A program made the translations under genes and the position numbers. Source: Phycisphaerales bacterium (GTDB lineage Bacteria; Planctomycetota; Phycisphaerae; Phycisphaerales; UBA1924). From it: 64,000 nucleotides of DNA. Below, piece after piece: positions 33,496 through 47,676 of the stretch. The stretch lies in the NCBI GenBank assembly GCA_007693765.1, contig RECZ01000065.1, positions 1 to 64,000 of the forward strand, given 5' to 3'. A model generated the notes under the pieces. That model was not told the origin of the DNA and made no database searches. It saw nothing but the letters and a program-made list of their open reading frames with translations. Positions within the stretch are counted from its first letter, which is position 1, and each line of letters starts with the position of its first letter.

Positions 33496-33962
33496 TCATC
33501 GACGCGGCCGTCCTGAGCGTGCACGCCGGCGCCACGCTGGCCATGATGGGCCTCATCTGGTTCGTGCAGATCGTGCACTACCCGCTCTACCCGAAGGTGG
33601 GGGAGGAAGGGTTCACCGAATACGAACGCGCCCACACCCGGCGCACAGGTTTCGTCGTTCTGCCGCTCATGGCCACCGAACTCTGTGCCGTCGCGATCCT
33701 GTGCTTCCTGCTGCCCGCAAACGTCGCCCCGGCGTTGATCTGGACGGGCCTCGCGCTGGTGGTGCTGATCTGGGTCTCAACGTTCGGCGTGCAGGTGCCC
33801 CTCCACATGCGCCTGGAGCGCTCGTGGGACTCCGCCACCGCGCGCCGGCTGGTGTTCACGAACTGGGTGCGCACACTCGCGTGGTCGGCGCGGGGCGTCA
33901 TCGCCTTGGTGATGATCGTGCAGAGCATGACGGGACAAGCCAACACCGGTGGCGCGGCGTGA
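33492..33962 (+). CDS. Four-helix membrane protein, unknown function
   Basis: A 156-residue integral membrane protein with four hydrophobic segments (residues ~4-25, ~53-73, ~80-100, ~130-148). Conserved-looking polar positions sit in the first loop (IVHYPLYPKVGEEGFTEYERAHTRR). Similar short proteins accompany photolyase genes in other bacteria, but I know no function. It starts with a GTG overlapping the upstream stop and ends in another GTGA overlap with the FeS-photolyase gene, so translation of these three genes is coupled. Confidence 0.7.
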   Translation: MIIDAAVLSVHAGATLAMMGLIWFVQIVHYPLYPKVGEEGFTEYERAHTRRTGFVVLPLMATELCAVAILCFLLPANVAPALIWTGLALVVLIWVSTFGVQVPLHMRLERSWDSATARRLVFTNWVRTLAWSARGVIALVMIVQSMTGQANTGGAA

Positions 33963-35560
33963 GCGAGGCCTCACCCACCGCCGGCCTGCGGCAGGACGGA
34001 GTCGCGCACACCGTGCGCACGCTCGTGGTCGTGTTGGGCGATCAACTCTCGCACGAGTATGCCGCGATCAAGGGAATCGACCCGGAGCGCGACGCCGTGC
34101 TGATGATGGAGGTCGCGCAGGAATCCGAGCACGTTCCCAGCCACGCGCAGCGCACGATCATGTTCCTCAGCGCGATGCGCCACTTCGCGTTGGAGCTGCA
34201 GGCACGCGGCGTGCCCGTCCGCTACGCCCGCCTCGAGGACCCGGCGAACACCCATTCATTCGACGGTGAGGTGGCCGCCGCGGTGCGCGACCTGCGACCC
34301 GAGCGCATCGTCGTCACCCACCCCGGCGAGCACCGCGTTTTGGCCATGGCCCGCGCGTGGGAGCAGGAACACGATATCTCCATCGAGATCCTTCCCGACA
34401 CGCACTTCCTCACGGATCTCGCCGACTTCAACGCGTGGACCGAAGGCAAGAAGGAAGTGCGCATGGAGCACTTCTACCGTCGACAGCGGCGCGCACTTCG
34501 TGTTCTCATGGACCAGCGCGGCGAGCCCGTCGGCGGCGCCTGGAACTTCGACAAGGACAACCGCAAGGCGTTCGGCAAGCACGGCCCCGACCCCGTCCCC
34601 ACGCCGCCACAGCGGTACGAACCCGACGCGGTGACCCGCGAGGTGATTTCCGCGGTCCGCGAGCGGTTGCCCGGCCTGCCCGGCAGGGCGGAGCGATTCG
34701 ACTGGCCCGTCACCCGCGCCGACGCTCTGCGCGCCCTCGATGACTTCATCACGCGCCGGCTCCCGATGTTCGGTCCCTTCGAGGACGCCATGTGGACGGG
34801 CGAGCCAGTCCTCTGGCACGCGCGGCTTTCCGCCCCGATGAACCTGAAGCTCCTCGACCCGCGTGAGGTTGTGAAGGCCGCGCTCGATGCGTACCGGCGG
34901 GGCAAGGCGCCGATCGAGTCCGTCGAGGGGTTCGTGCGCCAGGTGATCGGCTGGCGCGAGTTCATCCGCGCGATCTACTGGCGTGAGGGCCCCGGGTACG
35001 AACGCCGGAACGCGCTCGAACAGCACGCCAAACTCCCCGCGTTCTACTGGACCGCCGAGACCGACATGGCATGCCTGCGCGAGTGCGTCGGGCAGGTGCT
35101 CGACAACGCTTATGGCCACCACATCCAGCGTCTGATGGTCACGGGGAATTATGCGCTCATCGCCGGCGTGCATCCGAAGCGCGTCGCCGACTGGTATTTG
35201 GGCATGTACGCCGACGGTGTGGACTGGGTGACGCTGCCCAACACGCTGGGCATGGCCATGCACGCCGACGGGGGCGTCGTCGGCTCGAAGCCCTACGCCG
35301 CGAGCGGCAAGTACATCCAGCGGATGAGCAACTACTGCAAGGGCTGCCGCTACGACCCCGGCTCCCGCCACGGCGAGGGCGCGTGCCCCGTCACCGTCTT
35401 CTATTGGGACTTCCTCATCCGCAACGAGGAACGATTCCGCGCCAACACCCGTATGGCTCTCACCCTTAAGCACGTCGAGAAGATGCCCGCCGAGAAGCGC
35501 ACGCGGGTCACCGTCAGCGCCGGACGGCTCCGCGCGGCGATGGGCATCGGCGAAGTCTGA
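33959..35560 (+). CDS. FeS-containing cryptochrome/(6-4) photolyase (FeS-BCP, PhrB type)
   Basis: Light-driven repair of (6-4) photoproducts, with FAD, a lumazine-type antenna in characterised members and a [4Fe-4S] cluster. The 533-residue protein begins with the DPRP-like LVVVLGDQLSHE and has SVEGFVRQVIGWREFIRAIYW and GNYALIAGVHPKRVADWYLGMYADGVDWVTLPNT of the FAD domain. Cysteines at about 372, 460, 463 and 476 show spacings of 88, 3 and 13, the same as C350, C438, C441 and C454 of PhrB, so the cluster site is complete. The GTG at 33959 overlaps the upstream stop. A CPD photolyase follows 28 nt later. Confidence 0.9.
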   Translation: MSEASPTAGLRQDGVAHTVRTLVVVLGDQLSHEYAAIKGIDPERDAVLMMEVAQESEHVPSHAQRTIMFLSAMRHFALELQARGVPVRYARLEDPANTHSFDGEVAAAVRDLRPERIVVTHPGEHRVLAMARAWEQEHDISIEILPDTHFLTDLADFNAWTEGKKEVRMEHFYRRQRRALRVLMDQRGEPVGGAWNFDKDNRKAFGKHGPDPVPTPPQRYEPDAVTREVISAVRERLPGLPGRAERFDWPVTRADALRALDDFITRRLPMFGPFEDAMWTGEPVLWHARLSAPMNLKLLDPREVVKAALDAYRRGKAPIESVEGFVRQVIGWREFIRAIYWREGPGYERRNALEQHAKLPAFYWTAETDMACLRECVGQVLDNAYGHHIQRLMVTGNYALIAGVHPKRVADWYLGMYADGVDWVTLPNTLGMAMHADGGVVGSKPYAASGKYIQRMSNYCKGCRYDPGSRHGEGACPVTVFYWDFLIRNEERFRANTRMALTLKHVEKMPAEKRTRVTVSAGRLRAAMGIGEV

Positions 35561-35588
35561 ACCTATCTCAATAAGACAAAGTCATCCC

Positions 35589-37028
35589 ATGCGCACACTC
35601 GTCTGGTTCCGTCACGATCTCCGCACCAACGACAACACGGCGTTGCACCACGCGGCGCGCGCCGCGACCAATGGCGTCGTGGGGCTGTTCATCGTCTCTC
35701 CCGATGAGTGGCGCCGCCACGACGTCGCGCCGTGCAAGGTCGAGTTCATCCTGCGCACGCTGCGGGTACTCAGCGACGACCTGGCGTCGAAGAACATCCC
35801 GCTCCTGATCGAACGGGCCGAGAAGGCGGCCGATGTGCCCGCCCTTGTCCGCGACATCGCCCGGCGGCACGCGTGCGACGTCGTGCATTGCAACACCGAG
35901 TACGAGATTAACGAGACCATCCGCGACGAGAACGCCGCGGACCTGCTCCGCGAGATCGGCGCCGCGTTCCACGCCCACCACGACCAGTGCGTGATCGAGC
36001 CGGGGAGCGTCCGCACCAAGCAGGACGGGGCGTACACCGTCTTCACGCCCTTCAAGAAGACGTGGTTCACGGTCCACGACGATCGCGGCGGCGCCCCCGT
36101 CCTGCCGGCGCCGAAGAAGCAGCCGGAGATGCCTCAGGGCCTCGCGCCCAGTCCGGCGCCCGAACGGGTGGAGGGCTACACGTCCGACGTGCCCGCCGAA
36201 CTGCACCCCGGCGGCGAGCACGCCGCGATGCGACGCCTCACCGAGTTCGCGCAGCTCCGCATCGGCGACTACAAGACCGACCGCGACTACCCCGCGATCA
36301 ACGGCACCAGCGTGATCTCGCCCTACCTCGCCATCGGCGCGATCTCGCCCCGCCAGTGCCTCCGCGCCGCCCTCGACGCCAACGACGGGAGGCTCGATGC
36401 CGGCGCCCCCGGCGCCGTGCACTGGATTTCGGAGCTCGTGTGGCGCGAGTTCTACAAGCACATCCTCGTCGCCTTCCCGCGCGTCTGCATGCACCGCGCC
36501 TTCAAGCCGGAGACGGACCGCCTCCCGTGGCGCTACGACGAGGCTGAGTTCCAGCGCTGGTGCGACGGCCAAACCGGCGTGCCCATCGTGGACGCCGCGA
36601 TGCGCCAGTTGAGGGCGACCGGCTGGATGCACAACCGCTTGCGCATGATCGCGGCGATGTACCTCACGAAAGATCTTTTCATCGACTGGCGCTGGGGCGA
36701 GCGCTGGTTCATGCGCAACCTCGTTGACGGCGACCTCGCCAGCAACAACGGCGGGTGGCAGTGGTCCGCCTCCACCGGCACAGACGCCGCGCCCTATTTC
36801 CGCATCTTCAACCCCGTCAGCCAGAGCCGCCGCTGGGATGAACAAGGGGAGTTCATCCGCCATTTCGTCCACGAACTTATCGATCTCGATGACGCCGACA
36901 TCCACGACCCATCCGCCATCCCCGGCCTCCTGCGGTCGCAGATCGACTACCCCGAGCCCATGGTCGACCACCGCAAGGCCCGTGATCGGGTCATGGCGGC
37001 GTTCAGGGCCATCGCCGGCGACAAATGA
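35589..37028 (+). CDS. phrB: Deoxyribodipyrimidine photolyase (class I CPD)
   Basis: Uses blue light and FADH- to split cyclobutane pyrimidine dimers. The 479-residue length suits the class. It opens with LVWFRHDLRTNDNTAL (antenna domain) and has in the FAD domain YLAIGAISPRQCL, ELVWREFYKHIL, GVPIVDAAMRQLRATGWMHNRLRM and WQWSASTGTDAAPYFRIFNP, which carry the FAD contacts and the electron-transfer tryptophans. It follows the (6-4) photolyase closely, so one transcript probably supplies repair of both main UV lesions. No light-responsive regulator is seen beside it. Confidence 0.96.
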   Translation: MRTLVWFRHDLRTNDNTALHHAARAATNGVVGLFIVSPDEWRRHDVAPCKVEFILRTLRVLSDDLASKNIPLLIERAEKAADVPALVRDIARRHACDVVHCNTEYEINETIRDENAADLLREIGAAFHAHHDQCVIEPGSVRTKQDGAYTVFTPFKKTWFTVHDDRGGAPVLPAPKKQPEMPQGLAPSPAPERVEGYTSDVPAELHPGGEHAAMRRLTEFAQLRIGDYKTDRDYPAINGTSVISPYLAIGAISPRQCLRAALDANDGRLDAGAPGAVHWISELVWREFYKHILVAFPRVCMHRAFKPETDRLPWRYDEAEFQRWCDGQTGVPIVDAAMRQLRATGWMHNRLRMIAAMYLTKDLFIDWRWGERWFMRNLVDGDLASNNGGWQWSASTGTDAAPYFRIFNPVSQSRRWDEQGEFIRHFVHELIDLDDADIHDPSAIPGLLRSQIDYPEPMVDHRKARDRVMAAFRAIAGDK

Positions 37029-38757: not shown

Positions 38758-39729
38758 TCAGTCCGCCTTCTGCTTCGCCACGAAGGCGTCCTTGTCCGCC
38801 TCCGACCACGCGTCGAAGGCCGTATCGCAGCCGGGGCAGCAGAAGCCGATCCGGTTGTCCTTGTACGTGAGGAAGGTCCGGCCGTCGATGGCTTCTTCGC
38901 CGATGGGGCACATGGCGTTGATGGCGCTCTTTGCGCGGCGCATCTCGCCGACTCTGGCGTCCTGCGCTTCGAACCCCAGCACGCGCCACGCGTTGACGGC
39001 CTTTTCATCTTTGAAGGCCACTACGGCGCCGCGGTGCGCAAGGCGCGGGCTCGACGAATCGACCTCGGCGCCGCTCACGGGGCACGCCGTGTTCATCGCG
39101 TCTTGCGTCATGATCTCGTTGACGTACGCCCGGCGACGGTCCTCGTCCCACGCTTCGAACCGCGGCGGGCAGCGTTCGCAGCAGAACCCGACCGCTTCAT
39201 CGCCCACCGCGATGGTCGGCGCATCCGCCGCGACGGGGCGGCCGCTCACGGGGCAGCCCTCGTTGATCGGGGCCCGCGGAGCACGGGCGGCGACGTAGGC
39301 GTTCCTCGCGTCCGTGTCCCATGCGCGGAATTGCGCCGGGCACCCGCCGCAGCAGAACGCGACGCTGTACGCGCCCACCCGCAGCGTCGGGGGCTCGGCG
39401 CCGATGGGCTGATCGCTGATGGGGCACGTGTCGTTGACGATCAACGCGGGTGACTCCGCCGCGGGCGCGGGCGACATCGCCGGGGCGCCGGCGGTTCGCA
39501 CCTTCGCCACGGCGGCGCGGCGCTCGTCTTCACCGAGCCGCTGGAACGCCGTGCGGCACATGGCGCAGCAGAACCCGACGGTGTCGCCGTCGAAGGCGAT
39601 GGTCGGCGCGCCCTCGGGCACCGCCTCGCCCGACATGGGGCACGCCGAGTTGATGGGCGCCGCGAGGGCGAGCGCAGGCGTCGCGCAGAAGGCGAACGCG
39701 AGGAAGATCGATCGAATGACGTGCGGCAT
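38758..39729 (-). CDS. Exported protein with five tandem TRASH/YHS-like metal-binding modules
   Basis: Last gene of the metal-efflux operon. After a signal peptide (residues ~1-24) it contains five ~55-residue modules of the form C-P-x-S-(G/D)...G-x-x-V-x-F-C-C-x-x-C...F-x-x-W. Module cysteines: 30/54/55/58, 102/126/127/130, 159/183/184/187, 216 only, and 274/297/298/301. Module 4 keeps the CPVSG start but has lost the CCxxC half, so it probably cannot bind metal. Four competent sites in one 323-residue chain suggest a periplasmic store or shuttle that hands Cu(I)/Ag(I)-like ions to the pump. The ATG at 39727-39729 has AAGGAG. I know no characterised protein with this layout. Confidence 0.75.
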   Translation of the reverse strand: MPHVIRSIFLAFAFCATPALALAAPINSACPMSGEAVPEGAPTIAFDGDTVGFCCAMCRTAFQRLGEDERRAAVAKVRTAGAPAMSPAPAAESPALIVNDTCPISDQPIGAEPPTLRVGAYSVAFCCGGCPAQFRAWDTDARNAYVAARAPRAPINEGCPVSGRPVAADAPTIAVGDEAVGFCCERCPPRFEAWDEDRRRAYVNEIMTQDAMNTACPVSGAEVDSSSPRLAHRGAVVAFKDEKAVNAWRVLGFEAQDARVGEMRRAKSAINAMCPIGEEAIDGRTFLTYKDNRIGFCCPGCDTAFDAWSEADKDAFVAKQKAD

Positions 39730-39785
39730 GGGGAGTGTCTCCTTCAGACTGGTGGTGGCGGTGCGCCACGGTGAACGAACGAATA

Positions 39786-42700
39786 TTAGCGCTCTGCCGT
39801 CGCGTTGAGAAGGCGCAGGCGCCACTCTTCGCGGAGGCAGTAGAGGGTGGGCACCACGAACATGGTGATGGCGACGACGAGCATGCCGCCCACGCTGGGC
39901 ACGGCCATTGGCGTCATGATGTCCGACCCGCGTCCGGTGCTCGTGAGGATGGGCAGCAGGGCGAGCAGGGTGGTGGCGGTCGTCATGAGGCAGGGTCGCA
40001 CGCGGCGGAGGCCGGCCGCGATCGTCGCGGCTCGGATCTGTTCGATGGTCTCGGTCGCGCGTTTCTCAAAGCTCTGTTTCAGGTACGTCGCGATGATCAC
40101 GCCGTCGTCGCAGGCGATGCCGAAGAGCGCCAGGAACCCCACCCAGACGGCGACGCTCAGGTTGATCTGGTTCACCCGGAAGAGCTCGCGCATGTTCCGG
40201 CCCAGCACGTCGAAGTCGAGGAACCACGGCTGCCCGTACAGCCACAGCATCAGGAACCCGCCCGCACCGGCGACGAAGATGCCCGTGAAGACCATCCCCG
40301 TCGTCAGCACGGAGCGGAACTGCATGTACATCAGCACGAAGATCGCAAACAGCGAGACGGGCAGCACCAGGGCCAGCGTCTTCTGCGCCCGCGCCTGATT
40401 CTCCCACGAGCCGGCGAACGTGTAGCTCACGCCCCCGGGGAGCACGAGCGAACCGTCGTCGATCTTCGATTGCAGGTAGGACGCGGCGTCCTCGACCGCG
40501 CGCACCTCGGGCACGTCGCGCCGCCGATCGAAGAGGACGTACCCGACAAGGAACGCGTCCTCGCCGCGGATCATCTCCGGCCCGCGCACCGAGCGAACGT
40601 CCGCCACTTCCTCCAACGGGATCTGCGCCCCGCTCTCTGTCGTGATGAGCACACGCGGCAGCGTCTCGAGCCCGTCTCGCAGTTCCCGCTGGTAGCGCAC
40701 CCGCACCGGGTAGCGCTCGCGCCCCTCAACGGTGGTGGTCGCGATGGCGCCGCCGATGGCCGTTTCGATCACCCGCTGGGCATCGGCGATGCGCACGCCG
40801 TGGCGGGCAAGGCGGTCGCGGTCGAGGTGGATCTCGATGTACGGCCGCCCCACGATCCTGTCGGCGATCACCGCCGCGGGCTCGACCGTGGGCACGTCGC
40901 GCAGCAACGCCTCGATCTCCATGGCGGCCCGCTCGATCGTTTCGAGGTCCGGGCCGCGCACCTGCACCGCCATGGGCGCACGGATGCCGCTCTGGAGCAT
41001 CACCAGCCGCGCCGAGATCGGCTGCAGGAAGGGGGCGCCGGTCACGCCAGGCACGGCCGCGGCCTTCTCGACCTCGTTCCAGATGTCGCGCGCCGAGCGG
41101 ATGTGGTCGCGCCACTGGCGGTAGGGGCGGCCGGCGGGATCGGGGATGAGCTCGCCGTGCTCGTCACGCGCGAACTCGCCCTCGGCGTCGTCGAAACGGA
41201 AGCGGATCCGTCTGCCGCTGTCGTCGGCGATGTACTCCGGCTTGTAGTTGATGACGGTCTCGATCATGGAGATCGGCGCCGGGTCCAGGGCGCTCTCCAC
41301 GCGCCCGAGCTTGCCCACCGCGGACTCCACCTCGGGGATCTGCGTGATCATCATGTCCTGCAGCGCCAGCGCCTCGGCCGCCTCCGCGATGGAGGCGTGC
41401 GGCATGACGGTGGGCATCAGCAGGAACGAGCCCTCGTCGAGCGGGGGCATGAACTCCTTGCCCAGCCCGGGGAAGGCGTGCGAGAGCGAGACCCAGAACG
41501 GGGCGCTGCGCACCGTGTCGCGCTCCACGCCAAGACGCTCCGTCGTCGCCGGCACGAACGCGAAGACGCGATCGAACCCCAGCCATACGCTGGCGCCCGT
41601 CGCGATGAGCAGCGTGGGCAGCGCAAGGAACGCCGCCTTGTGCGCCAGACAAACCCGAAGAATCGGCTCGTACGCCCACTCGAGCAGTTTGAAGACCACC
41701 AGCACCACCCCGATGACCCCGCCCACGAAGACCGCGTTGCGCAGGTAGCCCTCTGCGGGGCCGAGCGGCAGCCACACGTTCGTCAACAGCAGCCACACGC
41801 CGATGAGCACCGCGATGTTCGCCAGCGTTGGCCCCGCCCACCGGGCCGCGGGCGGCATGTGCGGCTTGGCCAGATGGAAGATCCCGATCAACGCCACGAT
41901 GGCGCCCGCCCACCACTCGACAAAGACCCCCAGCGCAAGGCCCAACGCGATCAGTCCCCACAGCACAACGCGGCGGGTGAGCCGCGAGGGGAAGGGGCGC
42001 GCGATCAGCAGGTACGCCGCGCCGGGGATCACCGCCAGGGCCAGAACCACGGAGGCGATCAACGCCAGGGTTTTCGTGTAGGCCAGCGGCGAGAAGAGCC
42101 GGCCCTCCTGCCCCGTCATCGCGAAGACGGGAAGGAAGCCGATGACCGTCGTGGCGATCGCCGTCAGCACCGCCGAACCGACCTCACGCGTCGACTCGTA
42201 CACGACCTCGATGCGCGGTGTGTCCGGGGGCGCCTCCTTGAGCCCCTTGAGGATGTTCTCCGTCAGCACGACGCCCATGTCCACCATCGTGCCGATGGCG
42301 ATGGCGATGCCCGCCAGCGCCACCACGTTGGCGTCCACGCCCAACCCCTTCATGCCCACGAAACACATCAGCACCGCGGCGGGGAGCAGGGCGCTGATCA
42401 GCAACGCCGCCCGCAGGTGCGAAACCATCACGATCACCACGATCACCGTGATGAGGATCTGATTGATGAGTGCGCTGTACAGCGTCTGCAGCGTCTCCTG
42501 GATCAGCCCGGATCGGTCGTAGAAGGGCACGATCGTCACGCGGCTGGTGCGGCCGTCCTCGAGTGTGCGCACGGGCAGGCCGGGGGCGATCTCGTCGATC
42601 TTGCGCTTGACGTTGTTGATCGTCTCCAGCGGGTTGGCGCCGTGACGAACCACCACGACGCCCCCGACGACCTCGGCGCCCTCCTTGTCCAGCACGCCCA

Positions 42701-43586
42701 GACGCTGCGCCGGGCCGAGGGCGACTCGCGCGACGTCGCGCAGCAGCACGGGCGCGCCGCCGGTGGCGCGCACCACGCTGCGTTCGAGGTCGTCCACGCT
42801 CTTGACGAAGCCGAGGCCCCGCACCGTGTATTCGACGCGGTTGACCTCGATCGTGCGGGCGCCGACATCGAGGTTCGCGTCGCGCACCGCGCTGTAGACA
42901 TCATCGAGCGTCACCCCCCACGCGCGCATGGCGTCGGGGTCGACGTCCACCTGGTACTCCTGCACATACCCGCCCACGCTGGCGACTTCGCTCACGCCCT
43001 CCGCGGACTGCAGCGCGTACCGCACGACCCAGTCCTGGACAGAGCGCAGTTCGTGCAGATCCCAACCACCGGCGGGGTTCCCCTCCGCGTCGCGCCCCTC
43101 GAGCGTGTACCAGTACACTTGCCCCAGCGCCGTCGCGTCCGGGCCCAGCGCCGGCGTCACGCCCTCCGGCAACGCCCCCGCGGGCAGGCTGTTGAGTTTC
43201 TCGAGGATCCGCGCCCGCGACCAGTAGAACTCGACGCCCTCGTCGAAGATCAAGTAGATCGACGAAAAGCCGAACATCGAGATGCTGCGCACCGTCTTCA
43301 CGCCCGGCACGCCCATCATCGCAGTCGTCAGCGGATACGTGACCTGATCCTCGACGTCCTGCGGCGAGCGCCCCGGCCAGTCCGTGAAGACGATCTGCTG
43401 GTTCTCACCGATGTCCGGGATCGCGTCCACCGCCACCGGGTTGCGCGGCATGCCCCACGGGTCCCAGTCGAAGGGCGCCACCAGCACGCCCGCGAGCACC
43501 GCGAACGCGAGCAACAGCGCCACCACGACCTTCTGCTCGAGGCAGACACGGATCAGCCTGTCCAGCGGTGAGAGACGATCATTCAT
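39786..43586 (-). CDS. CusA/CzcA-type heavy-metal efflux RND transporter
   Basis: Inner-membrane proton-driven pump that expels metal ions through a tripartite channel. The 1266 residues exceed CusA (1047); the extra length is partly an insertion of membrane segments around residues 560-720 (FVEWWAGAIVALIGIFHLAKP region). Family features: PDIGENQQIVFTDWPGRSPQ near the start, VTYPLTTAMMGVPGVKTVRS, GGYVQEYQVDVDP and, in helix 4, GIAIAIGTMVDMGVVLTENI. Methionines near the periplasmic cleft suggest Cu/Ag, but Zn/Co/Cd is not excluded. The ATG at 43584-43586 overlaps the adaptor gene by 8 bp, and AAGGAG-like purines precede it. Confidence 0.93.
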   Translation of the reverse strand: MNDRLSPLDRLIRVCLEQKVVVALLLAFAVLAGVLVAPFDWDPWGMPRNPVAVDAIPDIGENQQIVFTDWPGRSPQDVEDQVTYPLTTAMMGVPGVKTVRSISMFGFSSIYLIFDEGVEFYWSRARILEKLNSLPAGALPEGVTPALGPDATALGQVYWYTLEGRDAEGNPAGGWDLHELRSVQDWVVRYALQSAEGVSEVASVGGYVQEYQVDVDPDAMRAWGVTLDDVYSAVRDANLDVGARTIEVNRVEYTVRGLGFVKSVDDLERSVVRATGGAPVLLRDVARVALGPAQRLGVLDKEGAEVVGGVVVVRHGANPLETINNVKRKIDEIAPGLPVRTLEDGRTSRVTIVPFYDRSGLIQETLQTLYSALINQILITVIVVIVMVSHLRAALLISALLPAAVLMCFVGMKGLGVDANVVALAGIAIAIGTMVDMGVVLTENILKGLKEAPPDTPRIEVVYESTREVGSAVLTAIATTVIGFLPVFAMTGQEGRLFSPLAYTKTLALIASVVLALAVIPGAAYLLIARPFPSRLTRRVVLWGLIALGLALGVFVEWWAGAIVALIGIFHLAKPHMPPAARWAGPTLANIAVLIGVWLLLTNVWLPLGPAEGYLRNAVFVGGVIGVVLVVFKLLEWAYEPILRVCLAHKAAFLALPTLLIATGASVWLGFDRVFAFVPATTERLGVERDTVRSAPFWVSLSHAFPGLGKEFMPPLDEGSFLLMPTVMPHASIAEAAEALALQDMMITQIPEVESAVGKLGRVESALDPAPISMIETVINYKPEYIADDSGRRIRFRFDDAEGEFARDEHGELIPDPAGRPYRQWRDHIRSARDIWNEVEKAAAVPGVTGAPFLQPISARLVMLQSGIRAPMAVQVRGPDLETIERAAMEIEALLRDVPTVEPAAVIADRIVGRPYIEIHLDRDRLARHGVRIADAQRVIETAIGGAIATTTVEGRERYPVRVRYQRELRDGLETLPRVLITTESGAQIPLEEVADVRSVRGPEMIRGEDAFLVGYVLFDRRRDVPEVRAVEDAASYLQSKIDDGSLVLPGGVSYTFAGSWENQARAQKTLALVLPVSLFAIFVLMYMQFRSVLTTGMVFTGIFVAGAGGFLMLWLYGQPWFLDFDVLGRNMRELFRVNQINLSVAVWVGFLALFGIACDDGVIIATYLKQSFEKRATETIEQIRAATIAAGLRRVRPCLMTTATTLLALLPILTSTGRGSDIMTPMAVPSVGGMLVVAITMFVVPTLYCLREEWRLRLLNATAER

Positions 43587-45582
43587 GGCCGTGCCCCTCA
43601 TGCCCCCGCTGCGCCGGTTGATCTCGTGCCGGCGGCGGCGAAGCGTGGGGGGCGCCGAGGGCGGGGACACGCTCGTCCACGACGCCGCACCGCAGCATGG
43701 AGGCGCCGAAGTAGGGGTTGGCGATCTCTTCCTGACGGGCAAGCCACTCGGCGCGGCGGCCATCGAAGGCCATGGGGCAGTGGGCGATGTACGAGACACC
43801 CCCGCCGGGTCGCCCGAACGTGCGCACGAGGGCGATCATCGCGTCGGCGTGCGTCTCGAACAGCGCCCGTGCCTCCCCGATATCGAGCAGGTCGTCGAGC
43901 CCGCCACGCCCGGCGGCCAGTCGTTCGCGCAGCGCCCTCCACTCGTCGCGCGGAGCGCCGAAGAGGCCCGAATCGTCGACGCGCATCGCTGCGCTGTGCA
44001 GTTCCTCCGTCGCGTCGAGGAAATCGAAGAAGTCGTCGTCCGCGAGCGCCTCCTGGGCGGCGAAGTACGCCTTGTAGAGCGCCGGGAGCGAGTCGAGGAA
44101 CGACGCGGGCGCCCTATGGCGGGGTGCGTGCGAGGGTTCGCGGGCCGGGCTCATCAGGCTGTGCTTGCCGGCGATCTGGGCGGCGCTGTCGATCTTGAAG
44201 GCGCCCGTGGTCACGACGCGCTCGCCTTCGCTCAGACCATCAAGCACCACGTAGGCGTCGCCGACGCGCGAACCGAGCCGCACATCACGGGCCTCGAAAA
44301 CGCCCTGTTCGGCCTCCACGTACACGAGCGCACGCCGCCCGGTGATCAACGGCGCCGAGGCGGGAATCAACAGCGGGTCGGTGTGCGGCCCGGCGCGGAG
44401 GCCGCCGGCGCCGGCGAGCACTTGCTCGGCGGGTTCGAGCGCCATGCCGCACACGTCGCAAGCGCCCGGCTCGTCCTTGACGATCTCGGGGTGCATGGGG
44501 CTGATCCACTTGCCACGAAGATCCGGCCCGATGGCGTGGCCGGCGTCGTCCACGCGCGATTCGACCCGCGCCCGCACGTACATGCCGGGTTTGAGCGCGC
44601 CATCGGCGTTGGGCACATTGAGTCGCACCTTGACGCTGCGCGTCATTTCGTCGAAGGCGGGGGGGATGTAGGCGATCACGCCTCGGAACTCGCGCCCCGG
44701 CACGGCGTCGGTCGTGACGATCACCGGCTGGGCGTAGCGGAGCAGCGGCAGGTCGCGCTCGTAGGCGTCGAGCAGGGCCCACACGCCGGTGTAGTCGGTG
44801 ATCTCAGCGAGGTCCTCGCCCCGGTCGAGCCAGTGCCCCTCGTGCCCGCCCAGCATCGTGATCACGCCCGTCGCGGGGCTGTGGATGCGGAAGGTCTTCT
44901 TCACGAGGCCCGTGCGCACGACCTCGTCGATGTCGGCGTCGGTGACGCCCAGCAGGCGCAGTTTCTGGCGCGAGGTCTCGACGAGATCCAACGCCGGGTC
45001 GACGCGCGACTGGCGGCGCGTGTCGAGTGCGGCGACCAGTTCGTACGCCGCGGTGAGCACATCGGGAGAGTAGAACTCCGCGATCACGTCGCCCACGCGC
45101 ACCGGCGCGCCGACGTAGTTGGCGTGGAGACGTTCGATGACGCCGTCGGTCAGCACCACGAGATCGCGGATGCGTGTCTCGTCCGTCTCGATGCGCCCGA
45201 ACAGACGCAGCTCAACGGAGGCGGGTCGTCGTTCGACGCGGCTGGTGCGCACATCGGCGAGCGCCCGCGCCGTGGCCCCGAATCGGACGCGGACCACGCC
45301 GTCCTCGTCGTCGTCCTCCGCCTCGCCAGCGGGGATGAGGTCCATGAAGCAGATCGGGCACTGGCCCATGCGGTCCATGCGGATCTGGGGGTGCATGGAG
45401 CAGGTGTAGACCGTCTTGTCAGCGGCGCTCGCCGGCGCCTCGGCGCCGTTGGCGGACTCGGCGCGAGGAGCAAACTGTCGCCCGAGCACGAAGGCCACGA
45501 TGAGCAGCACGAGCACCAGAACGATCGTGCCGGCGTGCGCTGCCACACGTCGGAGGATGGATACGGGGGCGCGCCGGTTCAT
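43579..45582 (-). CDS. CusB-type periplasmic adaptor with two HMBD motifs and DUF3347 tail
   Basis: Bridges the pump and the outer-membrane channel. The 667-residue protein has an N-terminal anchor (~residues 18-35), a first heavy-metal-binding domain (YTCSMHPQI then GQCPICFMDL, Cys61-Met63-His64, Cys75/78, Met80), the adaptor core (RVRFGATARALADVRTSRVE onward), a second HMBD inside the core (ISPMHPEIV then ACDVCGMAL, ~359-384) and a C-terminal DUF3347 domain (~498-637, ALYKAYFAAQEALADDDF, CPMAF). The tail ends HEGHGHE. Typical CusB is about 400 residues, so this is a fusion of three extra metal sites. The ATG at 45580-45582 has AAGGAG and overlaps the TolC gene stop. Confidence 0.9.
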   Translation of the reverse strand: MNRRAPVSILRRVAAHAGTIVLVLVLLIVAFVLGRQFAPRAESANGAEAPASAADKTVYTCSMHPQIRMDRMGQCPICFMDLIPAGEAEDDDEDGVVRVRFGATARALADVRTSRVERRPASVELRLFGRIETDETRIRDLVVLTDGVIERLHANYVGAPVRVGDVIAEFYSPDVLTAAYELVAALDTRRQSRVDPALDLVETSRQKLRLLGVTDADIDEVVRTGLVKKTFRIHSPATGVITMLGGHEGHWLDRGEDLAEITDYTGVWALLDAYERDLPLLRYAQPVIVTTDAVPGREFRGVIAYIPPAFDEMTRSVKVRLNVPNADGALKPGMYVRARVESRVDDAGHAIGPDLRGKWISPMHPEIVKDEPGACDVCGMALEPAEQVLAGAGGLRAGPHTDPLLIPASAPLITGRRALVYVEAEQGVFEARDVRLGSRVGDAYVVLDGLSEGERVVTTGAFKIDSAAQIAGKHSLMSPAREPSHAPRHRAPASFLDSLPALYKAYFAAQEALADDDFFDFLDATEELHSAAMRVDDSGLFGAPRDEWRALRERLAAGRGGLDDLLDIGEARALFETHADAMIALVRTFGRPGGGVSYIAHCPMAFDGRRAEWLARQEEIANPYFGASMLRCGVVDERVPALGAPHASPPPARDQPAQRGHEGHGHE

Positions 45583-46985
45583 TGTTCGTCTCCTTCGGTC
45601 GATTGCGCGTCGTTGTAGGCGTCGATCCGGCGCGGCAGGGGCACGCCGCTGAGCGACTCCAACTGCGCCAGGGTCGATGCGCGGTCGGCCACGGCGCGGG
45701 CTTCTTCGAGGCGCAGGGAAAGCAGGGTGCGCTCGGCGTCGAGGGCGTCCTGCAGGCCGGTGTTGCCCGCCGCGCAGCACGCCAGTACGGCGCGCATCGC
45801 CTCCTCGGCCTTGGGGATCAGCGTGTCACGCAGCAGCACGATGCGACGCTGGGCGTCGTGGTGCTGGAAGAGTAGGTCGGAGGCCTCCGCCCGCAGCCGG
45901 TGGCGGGCGTCCTCTCGCTCGTGCGCGGCGGCGAGCCGGTTCGAGGTCGCTTCCCGCACCCGCCCCTCGTTGCGCTCGCGCCAGATCGGCACACGCATCG
46001 AGACGGCGAAGATGTACTCGTCCGTGGTGACGTCAGCGCCGGCGCCGAGGGTGAAATCCGGGTTGTTCTCGGCGCGGGCCACGGCCTGCCCCTGTCGGAG
46101 CGATTCGACGAGCGCGCTTTGTGCGCGCAGCGTCGGGTTGTGATCCTCGAGCCACGCGACCACGTCATCATCGTGTGCGTCCAGCACCTCGTCGGGCGAC
46201 GCCCACGCCTCGGGGAGGGGGGCGTCCGCGGGGCGGCTGAGCATCGCGTTGAGTCGGGCCGCGAGCGGAACGCGCCGAGCGACGAGGCTTTCCAACTCGT
46301 TCTCCAGCCTGCCCACCTCCACCTGCGCCCGCACGACCGCGGCGTACATGTCCGGCTGTGTCATGTACTGGGCGCGAAGGGATGATTCGAGCTGCGTCAC
46401 GAGCTCCGCCGTGTCACGGGTGAGGGCGATGCGGGCGTCGAGGTAGCCCAGTTCGAGCACGTTCTCGATGATGCGCGCTCGGATGGCGAGCCACTGTTCG
46501 CTCACCCTCGCCAACTCCGCCTCGGCGGCGTATGTGGCCGCATCGCGTCGGCGCTCGATTGTGCCGAACCACGGGAAGGCCTGCTCGACCATGATCTCCT
46601 GCTTGCGCGGGCGCCCGTCGCGTTCGTGCAGGTAGGAGACCCGCGGGTCGGGCAGGAAGCGGGCCGAGTCGATGCGGGCCGCGGCCGCCTGCCACCGCTC
46701 CTGCGCGGCTCGGAGGGCGACGCTGTGCGTCTGCGCGTAGGTCAGCACGTCCTCGAGCGTCGCGTTGGCGGGCAGCGGGTCGGTGTCGGCGCGGTGCGCA
46801 CCGTCTCTGGGATTGGCGGGCGACCCGTTCGCGCGGGGAGGCGGCGGGCGCTGCATATCGAGCCACGGGTCTTGCCACGAGGCCGCGGGGGGTCGCCGCT
46901 CGTCGAGGGGCGATGCGCAGCCTGTGAGCACGGCGCCGACGCACAATGCGCCGAGGGGGACGCGCCACGGGGTATTCGGCGTCAT
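45579..46985 (-). CDS. TolC-family outer-membrane efflux lipoprotein (CusC type)
   Basis: Outer-membrane channel of the tripartite efflux system. The 468-residue protein has a lipobox VLTGCASP (Cys ~23), a Pro-rich linker, then two tandem OEP repeats of long helices (NATLEDVLTYAQTHSVALRAAQERWQ region at ~80; LEDHNPTLRAQSALVESLRQG region at ~270). Length matches CusC (~460). The ATG at 46983-46985 has AAGGAG; its stop overlaps the adaptor start by four bases (ATGA). It follows the Cys-rich gene by 111 bp on the same strand, where I see no promoter or terminator. Confidence 0.9.
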   Translation of the reverse strand: MTPNTPWRVPLGALCVGAVLTGCASPLDERRPPAASWQDPWLDMQRPPPPRANGSPANPRDGAHRADTDPLPANATLEDVLTYAQTHSVALRAAQERWQAAAARIDSARFLPDPRVSYLHERDGRPRKQEIMVEQAFPWFGTIERRRDAATYAAEAELARVSEQWLAIRARIIENVLELGYLDARIALTRDTAELVTQLESSLRAQYMTQPDMYAAVVRAQVEVGRLENELESLVARRVPLAARLNAMLSRPADAPLPEAWASPDEVLDAHDDDVVAWLEDHNPTLRAQSALVESLRQGQAVARAENNPDFTLGAGADVTTDEYIFAVSMRVPIWRERNEGRVREATSNRLAAAHEREDARHRLRAEASDLLFQHHDAQRRIVLLRDTLIPKAEEAMRAVLACCAAGNTGLQDALDAERTLLSLRLEEARAVADRASTLAQLESLSGVPLPRRIDAYNDAQSTEGDEQ

Positions 46986-47096
46986 GAGACGCTCCTTGTC
47001 GGTGTCACGCGATGCCCCGCGGTGCGGGCGCATCGATCAACGCCCCGAACGCGCACGCGTGCGGGGGGTCAGGTGCGAAGCGACAACGACAGGGAA

Positions 47097-47480
47097 CTAG
47101 GTCAGCCAGCGACACAGCGACGCCTGGGTACGGCGCGTGTGCGGCGAGAGCGTCCATTCGGGGGCCGGCGAGCGCCGTTCATAGGCGATCCGTGGCTCGT
47201 GCCCGGCGGTGCGATCCACGAGGGTCTGGGGCTGTCCGGGCTTCTCCGCGAGCGTTGGGAGGATCGGCGCCGGCACGAGGTCCATGCACGGGCAGCCGAG
47301 TTCCTGGTCCGGGGCGGGCGCATCGGTGTCGCAGCACGAGGGCGCCTCGGGGACGGCCGGGACACAACAGCAGGCGTCGCTCGGCCCCAGATCTGCGCTG
47401 CGGAGGCTGCAGACCGCTTGCGTGCCCAGCATCGCGGGCGGGAGCACCAACGTCAGCAGCAGGATGAGGCGGATCAGCAT
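47097..47480 (-). CDS. Small exported Cys-rich protein, first gene of the metal-efflux operon
   Basis: Not a recognised family. The 127-residue protein has a signal peptide (residues ~1-22) and nine cysteines, at 24, 37, 38, 39, 49, 50, 63, 65 and near 123, in CCC, CC and CxC clusters (SDACCCVP, APSCCDTD, LGCPCMD). Such spacing suits binding of thiophilic metals, and the four genes below it are a metal-efflux pump. A weak promoter (TTGACT at 47511-47516, GACGAT 17 nt later) lies just before it, giving a very short leader; GAGGTG abuts the ATG. A role as metal trap or sensor is inferred from composition and position. Confidence 0.55.
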   Translation of the reverse strand: MLIRLILLLTLVLPPAMLGTQAVCSLRSADLGPSDACCCVPAVPEAPSCCDTDAPAPDQELGCPCMDLVPAPILPTLAEKPGQPQTLVDRTAGHEPRIAYERRSPAPEWTLSPHTRRTQASLCRWLT

Positions 47481-47676
47481 CACCTCAATCGTCGGACGTG
47501 CGGGAGCAAGAGTCAAACGAGGGTCGGCGGGAGCGGAGGTCTCGGGGCCCGATCAGCCTTGGGGGCCGATCGCGTAAGGGTCTGTGCGGGCTGGGCAAGG
47601 TGGGCGGTTTCCGGGGGCTCGGGGGCCGCTCCGAGGACATCCAGCGGCCTTCGCGTTGTGCCGATGTCGCGCACGG

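Follow-up and report, generated by a model that had tools for sequence, protein, structure and literature searches.

In the Cus system of E. coli, Cu(I) is carried in the periplasm by the chaperone CusF, a single OB-fold with Met/His/Trp ligands. The TRASH domain is a relative of the YHS domain; in L24e, Cd is bound via four cysteines, and copper sensing is the probable role of one YHS domain (PMC4626032). NosL and MerB have been described as fused TRASH-like treble clefs in which zinc binding was lost (PMC4999995), and TRASH/YHS domains have a known connection with the handling of heavy metals (Ettema, 2003, cited in PMC4999995).

The window analysed here (the whole stretch of 64,000 nucleotides from a Phycisphaerales genome) contains a five-module, metal-binding-type array beside a pump operon, with the coordinates and the description given in an earlier preliminary description confirmed (Table 1). 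The array gene has an ATG start, and its open reading frame was read as five modules of about 52 residues each. The protein is probably secreted, as suggested by an N-terminal hydrophobic stretch read by eye as a signal peptide. A CusC-CusB-CusA-like operon lies upstream on the same strand, separated from the array gene by 57 bp. The CusA-like pump scored 767.7 bits with TIGR00914 (cut-off 701), and the Met triad of E. coli CusA (Met573/623/672) was conserved in a phmmer alignment to 3t51. The base composition (G+C) of the pump operon gave no signal of horizontal transfer. The small protein encoded at the operon head carries CCCV, SCC and GCPC, and a phmmer comparison with related operons gave no match to it. 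The genes downstream of the array are convergent and encode an alpha/beta hydrolase and two cryptochrome/photolyase-type proteins.

Table 1. Features of the array locus, and proteins with site-less modules at other loci. Positions without a locus prefix are those of the window.
Feature	Position	Strand	Basis or remark
Array gene, predicted secreted five-module TRASH-type protein, 323 aa	38758..39729	(-)	sequence and Pfam
Shine-Dalgarno-like AAGGAG	39739..39744	(-)	sequence
Putative signal peptide, residues 1 to about 24	39658..39729	(-)	predicted by eye
Module 1, intact, GFCCAMC, residues 26-77	39499..39654	(-)	
Module 2, intact, AFCCGGC, residues 98-149	39283..39438	(-)	
Module 3, intact, GFCCERC, residues 155-206	39112..39267	(-)	
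Module 4, metal-site-less, CPVSG kept, AFKDEKA replaces FCCxxC, residues 212-263	38941..39096	(-)	
Module 5, intact, canonical type-1 (CPIG...GFCCPGC), residues 270-320	38770..38922	(-)	
CusA/CzcA-family RND pump	39786..43586	(-)	TIGR00914 above cut-off; start inferred
CusB-like adaptor with two HMBD copies	43579..45582	(-)	start inferred
TolC/CusC-like outer membrane efflux protein	45579..46988	(-)	
Small Cys-rich secreted-looking protein, operon head	47097..47516	(-)	without family match
Large orthologous-looking proteins reading FHDAAS	L131:3357-5414, L132:2322-4379, L133:1317-3425, L134:3038-5152		
All-site-less four-module proteins	L141:5766-6599, L142:5685-6554, L191:5481-6356, L192:5876-6820, L193:5219-6097, L194:5666-6511		

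Modules 1, 2, 3 and 5 share the pattern N-x-x-C-P...F-C-C-x-x-C with the spacing C-x(~24)-CCxxC, and thus match the TRASH/YHS motif Cys-x(about 20-25)-Cys-x3-Cys, which module 4 does not. With a profile built solely from modules of other genomes, modules 5, 3, 2 and 1 scored 85, 63, 56 and 50 bits, respectively. PF24273 (the HVO_1752 C-terminal TRASH domain) matched the whole chain in Pfam with an E-value of 7e-15 (55.4 bits, cut-off 27). The CusF family gave no Pfam or NCBIfam hit in the array protein, which does not classify as an OB-fold CusF. Pairwise identities were 33-48% among the four intact modules and 25-33% between module 4 and the rest. Because identities are just 25-48%, the modules appear to be old, and a recent tandem duplication as the origin of the array was ruled out. 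A weak sixth TRASH-like match (21.7 bits) was seen elsewhere in the same genome, in an open frame of 855 aa (G000:C174:2742-2909 (+)).

Module 4 (NTACPVSG...VAFKDEKAVNAW) reads FKDEKA at the place of the FCCxxC of the other modules and is without three of the four presumed ligands. Its codons AAA GAT GAA AAG GCC stand against TGC TGC nnn nnn TGC of a CCxxC motif; the site loss thus amounts to at least eight base substitutions, with no stop and no frameshift, and a sequencing error or frameshift was ruled out on these grounds. Module 4 alone matched no Pfam family. With the profile described above it scored 20.6 bits (five sequences searched, E about 1e-7), and is therefore a genuine homologue and not a chance match. 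A module tree meant to date its origin comprised 52 columns and was without resolution, with module 4 on a very long branch, and no same-genus orthologue of module 4 was present among the relatives.

The whole-chain AlphaFold model (pLDDT 75.7) showed one strand-strand-helix-helix unit in modules 1, 2, 3 and 5, which were modelled with confidence; module 4, which was without alignment cover, was of low confidence there. Modelled separately (pLDDT 77), module 4 had its strands and helices at the positions of those of the intact modules, with the qualification that the input alignment of site-less modules favours a shared fold. This model bears out the earlier statement that module 4 kept a fold-like remainder while losing CCxxC. 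Foldseek searches with the chain listed ribosomal L24e and the TRASH domain of ZMYM5, both weak and none at E<=0.001. Searches with the module 4 model returned nothing significant, with LIM, PHD and toluene/o-xylene monooxygenase hydroxylase matches as leads only, and a sequence search of the PDB with module profiles gave zinc-finger noise and a weak TA0938 hit only.

Multi-module TRASH arrays proved to be common in Phycisphaerales when 163 genomes from the family, 400 drawn evenly from the order and 397 from the class were searched with profiles. Two kinds of module were distinguished: type 1, the chain-opening module (CPIG..., with a W near the end), and type 2, a longer kind that follows it (LGSMGDP...REVRFCC). 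The loci of the family were fetched with their flanks (n=60), and three or more modules were readable in 59. One type-1 plus three type-2 modules was the commonest make-up (44 loci). In ten loci there are four type-2 modules, and the second of these, third in the chain, is site-less. A further four loci have five modules with none site-less, and in one (G034) the second module is of type 1 and site-less. A make-up of five type-1 modules was found so far in this genome only, among the genomes surveyed. Used as a single query against the contigs of named genomes, the array protein retrieved no homologue; an alignment query retrieved 80 named loci, and the gene order TolC-CusB-CusA-array recurs in named Phycisphaerales genomes. 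Within the family, a CusA-type gene lies 5' of the array on the same strand at 45 of the 60 loci. Each of these 45 arrays has exactly four CCxxC modules, as has the array studied here despite its five modules. A universal rule of four intact sites was ruled out, as L143, from the sister family, has five intact modules beside CusA and three-module arrays exist. A five-fold array in a pump operon had been presented as apparently undescribed, and the open-licence papers searched contained no description of tandem TRASH arrays next to Cus pumps. The array as such is nevertheless not exceptional, as tandem arrays of four or five modules occur widely after cusA in the family. Single type-1-like TRASH modules fused to a multi-span membrane domain were also observed directly after or beside arrays (L013:1-777, L004:3-1049 and L023:2082-3029).

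A search with the neighbouring photolyase as query identified G086 and G070, both of which carry a type-1 array at the same convergent place; neither has five modules of this type. All three modules of the G086 array are intact. The G070 array consists of four modules, of which the second is site-less and directly precedes the CPIG module, as module 4 precedes module 5. In G086 (69% complete) the array is directly followed by the gene that in the studied genome lies beyond the pump operon, and a search of G070 for a CusA relative gave none at E 1e-30. The array thus does not need this pump. Since both relatives have the array without the pump operon, the two are separable, and the adjacency seen here is either derived or was lost in the relatives. 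The two adjacent cryptochrome/photolyase-type genes of the window (33949-37028 (+)) are in the same order beside the type-1 array of G070.

Site-less modules were then considered as a class. Among 463 distinct modules, three, two, one or none of the CCxxC cysteines were present in 388, 26, 1 and 48, respectively (385/29/0/55 in an earlier count with a different profile). A strict all-or-none loss was ruled out by one exception (module 3 of L140), and the distribution is instead one of near-absence of intermediates. In 45 of the 46 zero-Cys modules that are readable at the place of the second Cys (position 30), this residue is Asp, Ser, Asn or Thr, against a background of about 19%. In the zero-Cys group the place of the third is mostly Ala or Ser, position 37 is aromatic in all 48, and the first Cys (C5) is retained in 46 of 48. 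The figures are descriptive and do not amount to a test, as modules of related genomes are non-independent and the profiles were partly built from site-less modules themselves. In the ten-locus clade, the pooled pN/pS was 0.28 for the site-less type-2 module and 0.22-0.34 for its intact neighbours, the pairs being non-independent and synonymous sites partly saturated. An apparent intermediate of site loss was noted in large, orthologous-looking proteins, where the same module reads FCDGDC in one (L135:1605-3647) and FHDAAS in four others (Table 1). In six genomes of the sister family, proteins of just four site-less modules are encoded directly upstream of an intact three-module array.

The state of module 4 had been put down to internal decay, in which a duplicate loses its ligands by drift and persists, on its way out, as at most a passive linker. 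Module 4 is indeed the most divergent module of the array, its branch in the tree of modules is very long, and the exact make-up of the array was met in no relative. However, its frame, hydrophobic pattern, C5 and position-37 aromatic are all retained, its substitutions agree with those of other site-less modules, half-lost sites are nearly absent among the 463 modules, and G070 too has a site-less module ahead of its CPIG module. The recurrent, conserved substitutions and the purifying selection in the parallel ten-locus clade argue against simple decay, which we regard as unlikely. Going by the relatives, site-less modules are best read as a recurring, conserved type and not as local decay, and the constraint seen in the ten-locus clade presumably also holds for module 4. 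A different functional site in module 4, formed by its single Cys with Asp, Lys or Met neighbours or with a Cys of another module, so that the chain would bind five ions or a bridging ion, appears decidedly improbable. A pure spacer exposed to an oxidising compartment would not be expected to retain C5, as nearly all zero-Cys modules do, and Asp, Ser or Asn at position 30 could act as a ligand. Against this, no second conserved Cys, His or Met was found within site-less modules, and the helix begins directly after position 30 in the module 4 model; with Asp, Ser and Asn interchangeable there, a helix cap fits better than a ligand. The Asp, Ser, Asn or Thr at this position may thus be a helix N-cap that substitutes for the metal as stabiliser.

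It was also considered whether the array is an independent periplasmic metal sink or a structural protein that came to lie beside the pump by chance. The arrays without a pump in both syntenic relatives would suit such a role. The other type of array (one type-1 plus three or four type-2 modules), however, is beside cusA at three quarters of the family loci (45/60), which points to repeated linkage, and a sink or structural protein beside the pump by chance is considered very unlikely. The reading that we prefer, with slightly more confidence than doubt, is of a periplasmic array that handles Cu(I)/Ag(I), with four predicted metal sites and a stable site-less module 4. Modules 1, 2, 3 and 5 would be treble clefs of the TRASH type, each holding one soft metal ion via C5 and CCxxC, and the array would buffer metal or hand it on to the pump of CusCBA type whose genes lie immediately upstream. 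Module 4 would keep the fold without a complete site, with Asp capping the helix at the place of the second Cys and Ala at that of the third; it would be a stable spacer or docking surface and not a fifth site, and its lone retained Cys may give a weak or transient contact. We infer the identity of the metal, the stoichiometry of four ions and the hand-over to the pump.

A broader proposition, for which we claim little probability, is that CusA-coupled arrays are held at four sites and that site-less TRASH modules are a working class of parts in planctomycete metal-handling arrays. If so, each added module would entail that one site is switched off, since hand-over would need a fixed stoichiometry. 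TRASH/YHS, usually a single metal-binding domain, is built into predicted secreted arrays beside copper pumps across Phycisphaerales, and the TRASH fold appears repeatedly to survive loss of its metal site through a predictable set of substitutions. The 388/26/1/48 distribution is a natural series in which to study how a zinc-finger-like fold can persist once its metal is gone, and whether delivery to an RND pump depends on the number of sites being fixed.

The array protein adds a variant to a known domain family, and what most merits testing is the recurrence of site-less modules as a class and a possible restriction to four sites. With the TRASH/YHS superfamily (PF24273, PF08394 and PF04945) it shares the C-x(n)-C-x3-C core within FCCxxC, a module of about 50 residues and the strand-strand-helix-helix order; it differs in having five modules in one chain that is predicted to be secreted. 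The type-1 plus type-2 arrays downstream of cusA in Phycisphaerales are alike in position, predicted secretion and tandem modules, and in some (10 loci) in having one site-less module, but are composed of one type-1 and three or four type-2 modules, whereas this protein has five of type 1. NosL and MerB, likened here by description, are a precedent for a TRASH fold kept after loss of the zinc site, but are fused two-module folds with new functions. The array would work like CusF, as a small secreted metal carrier encoded with CusCBA, although no sequence relation between the two was seen.
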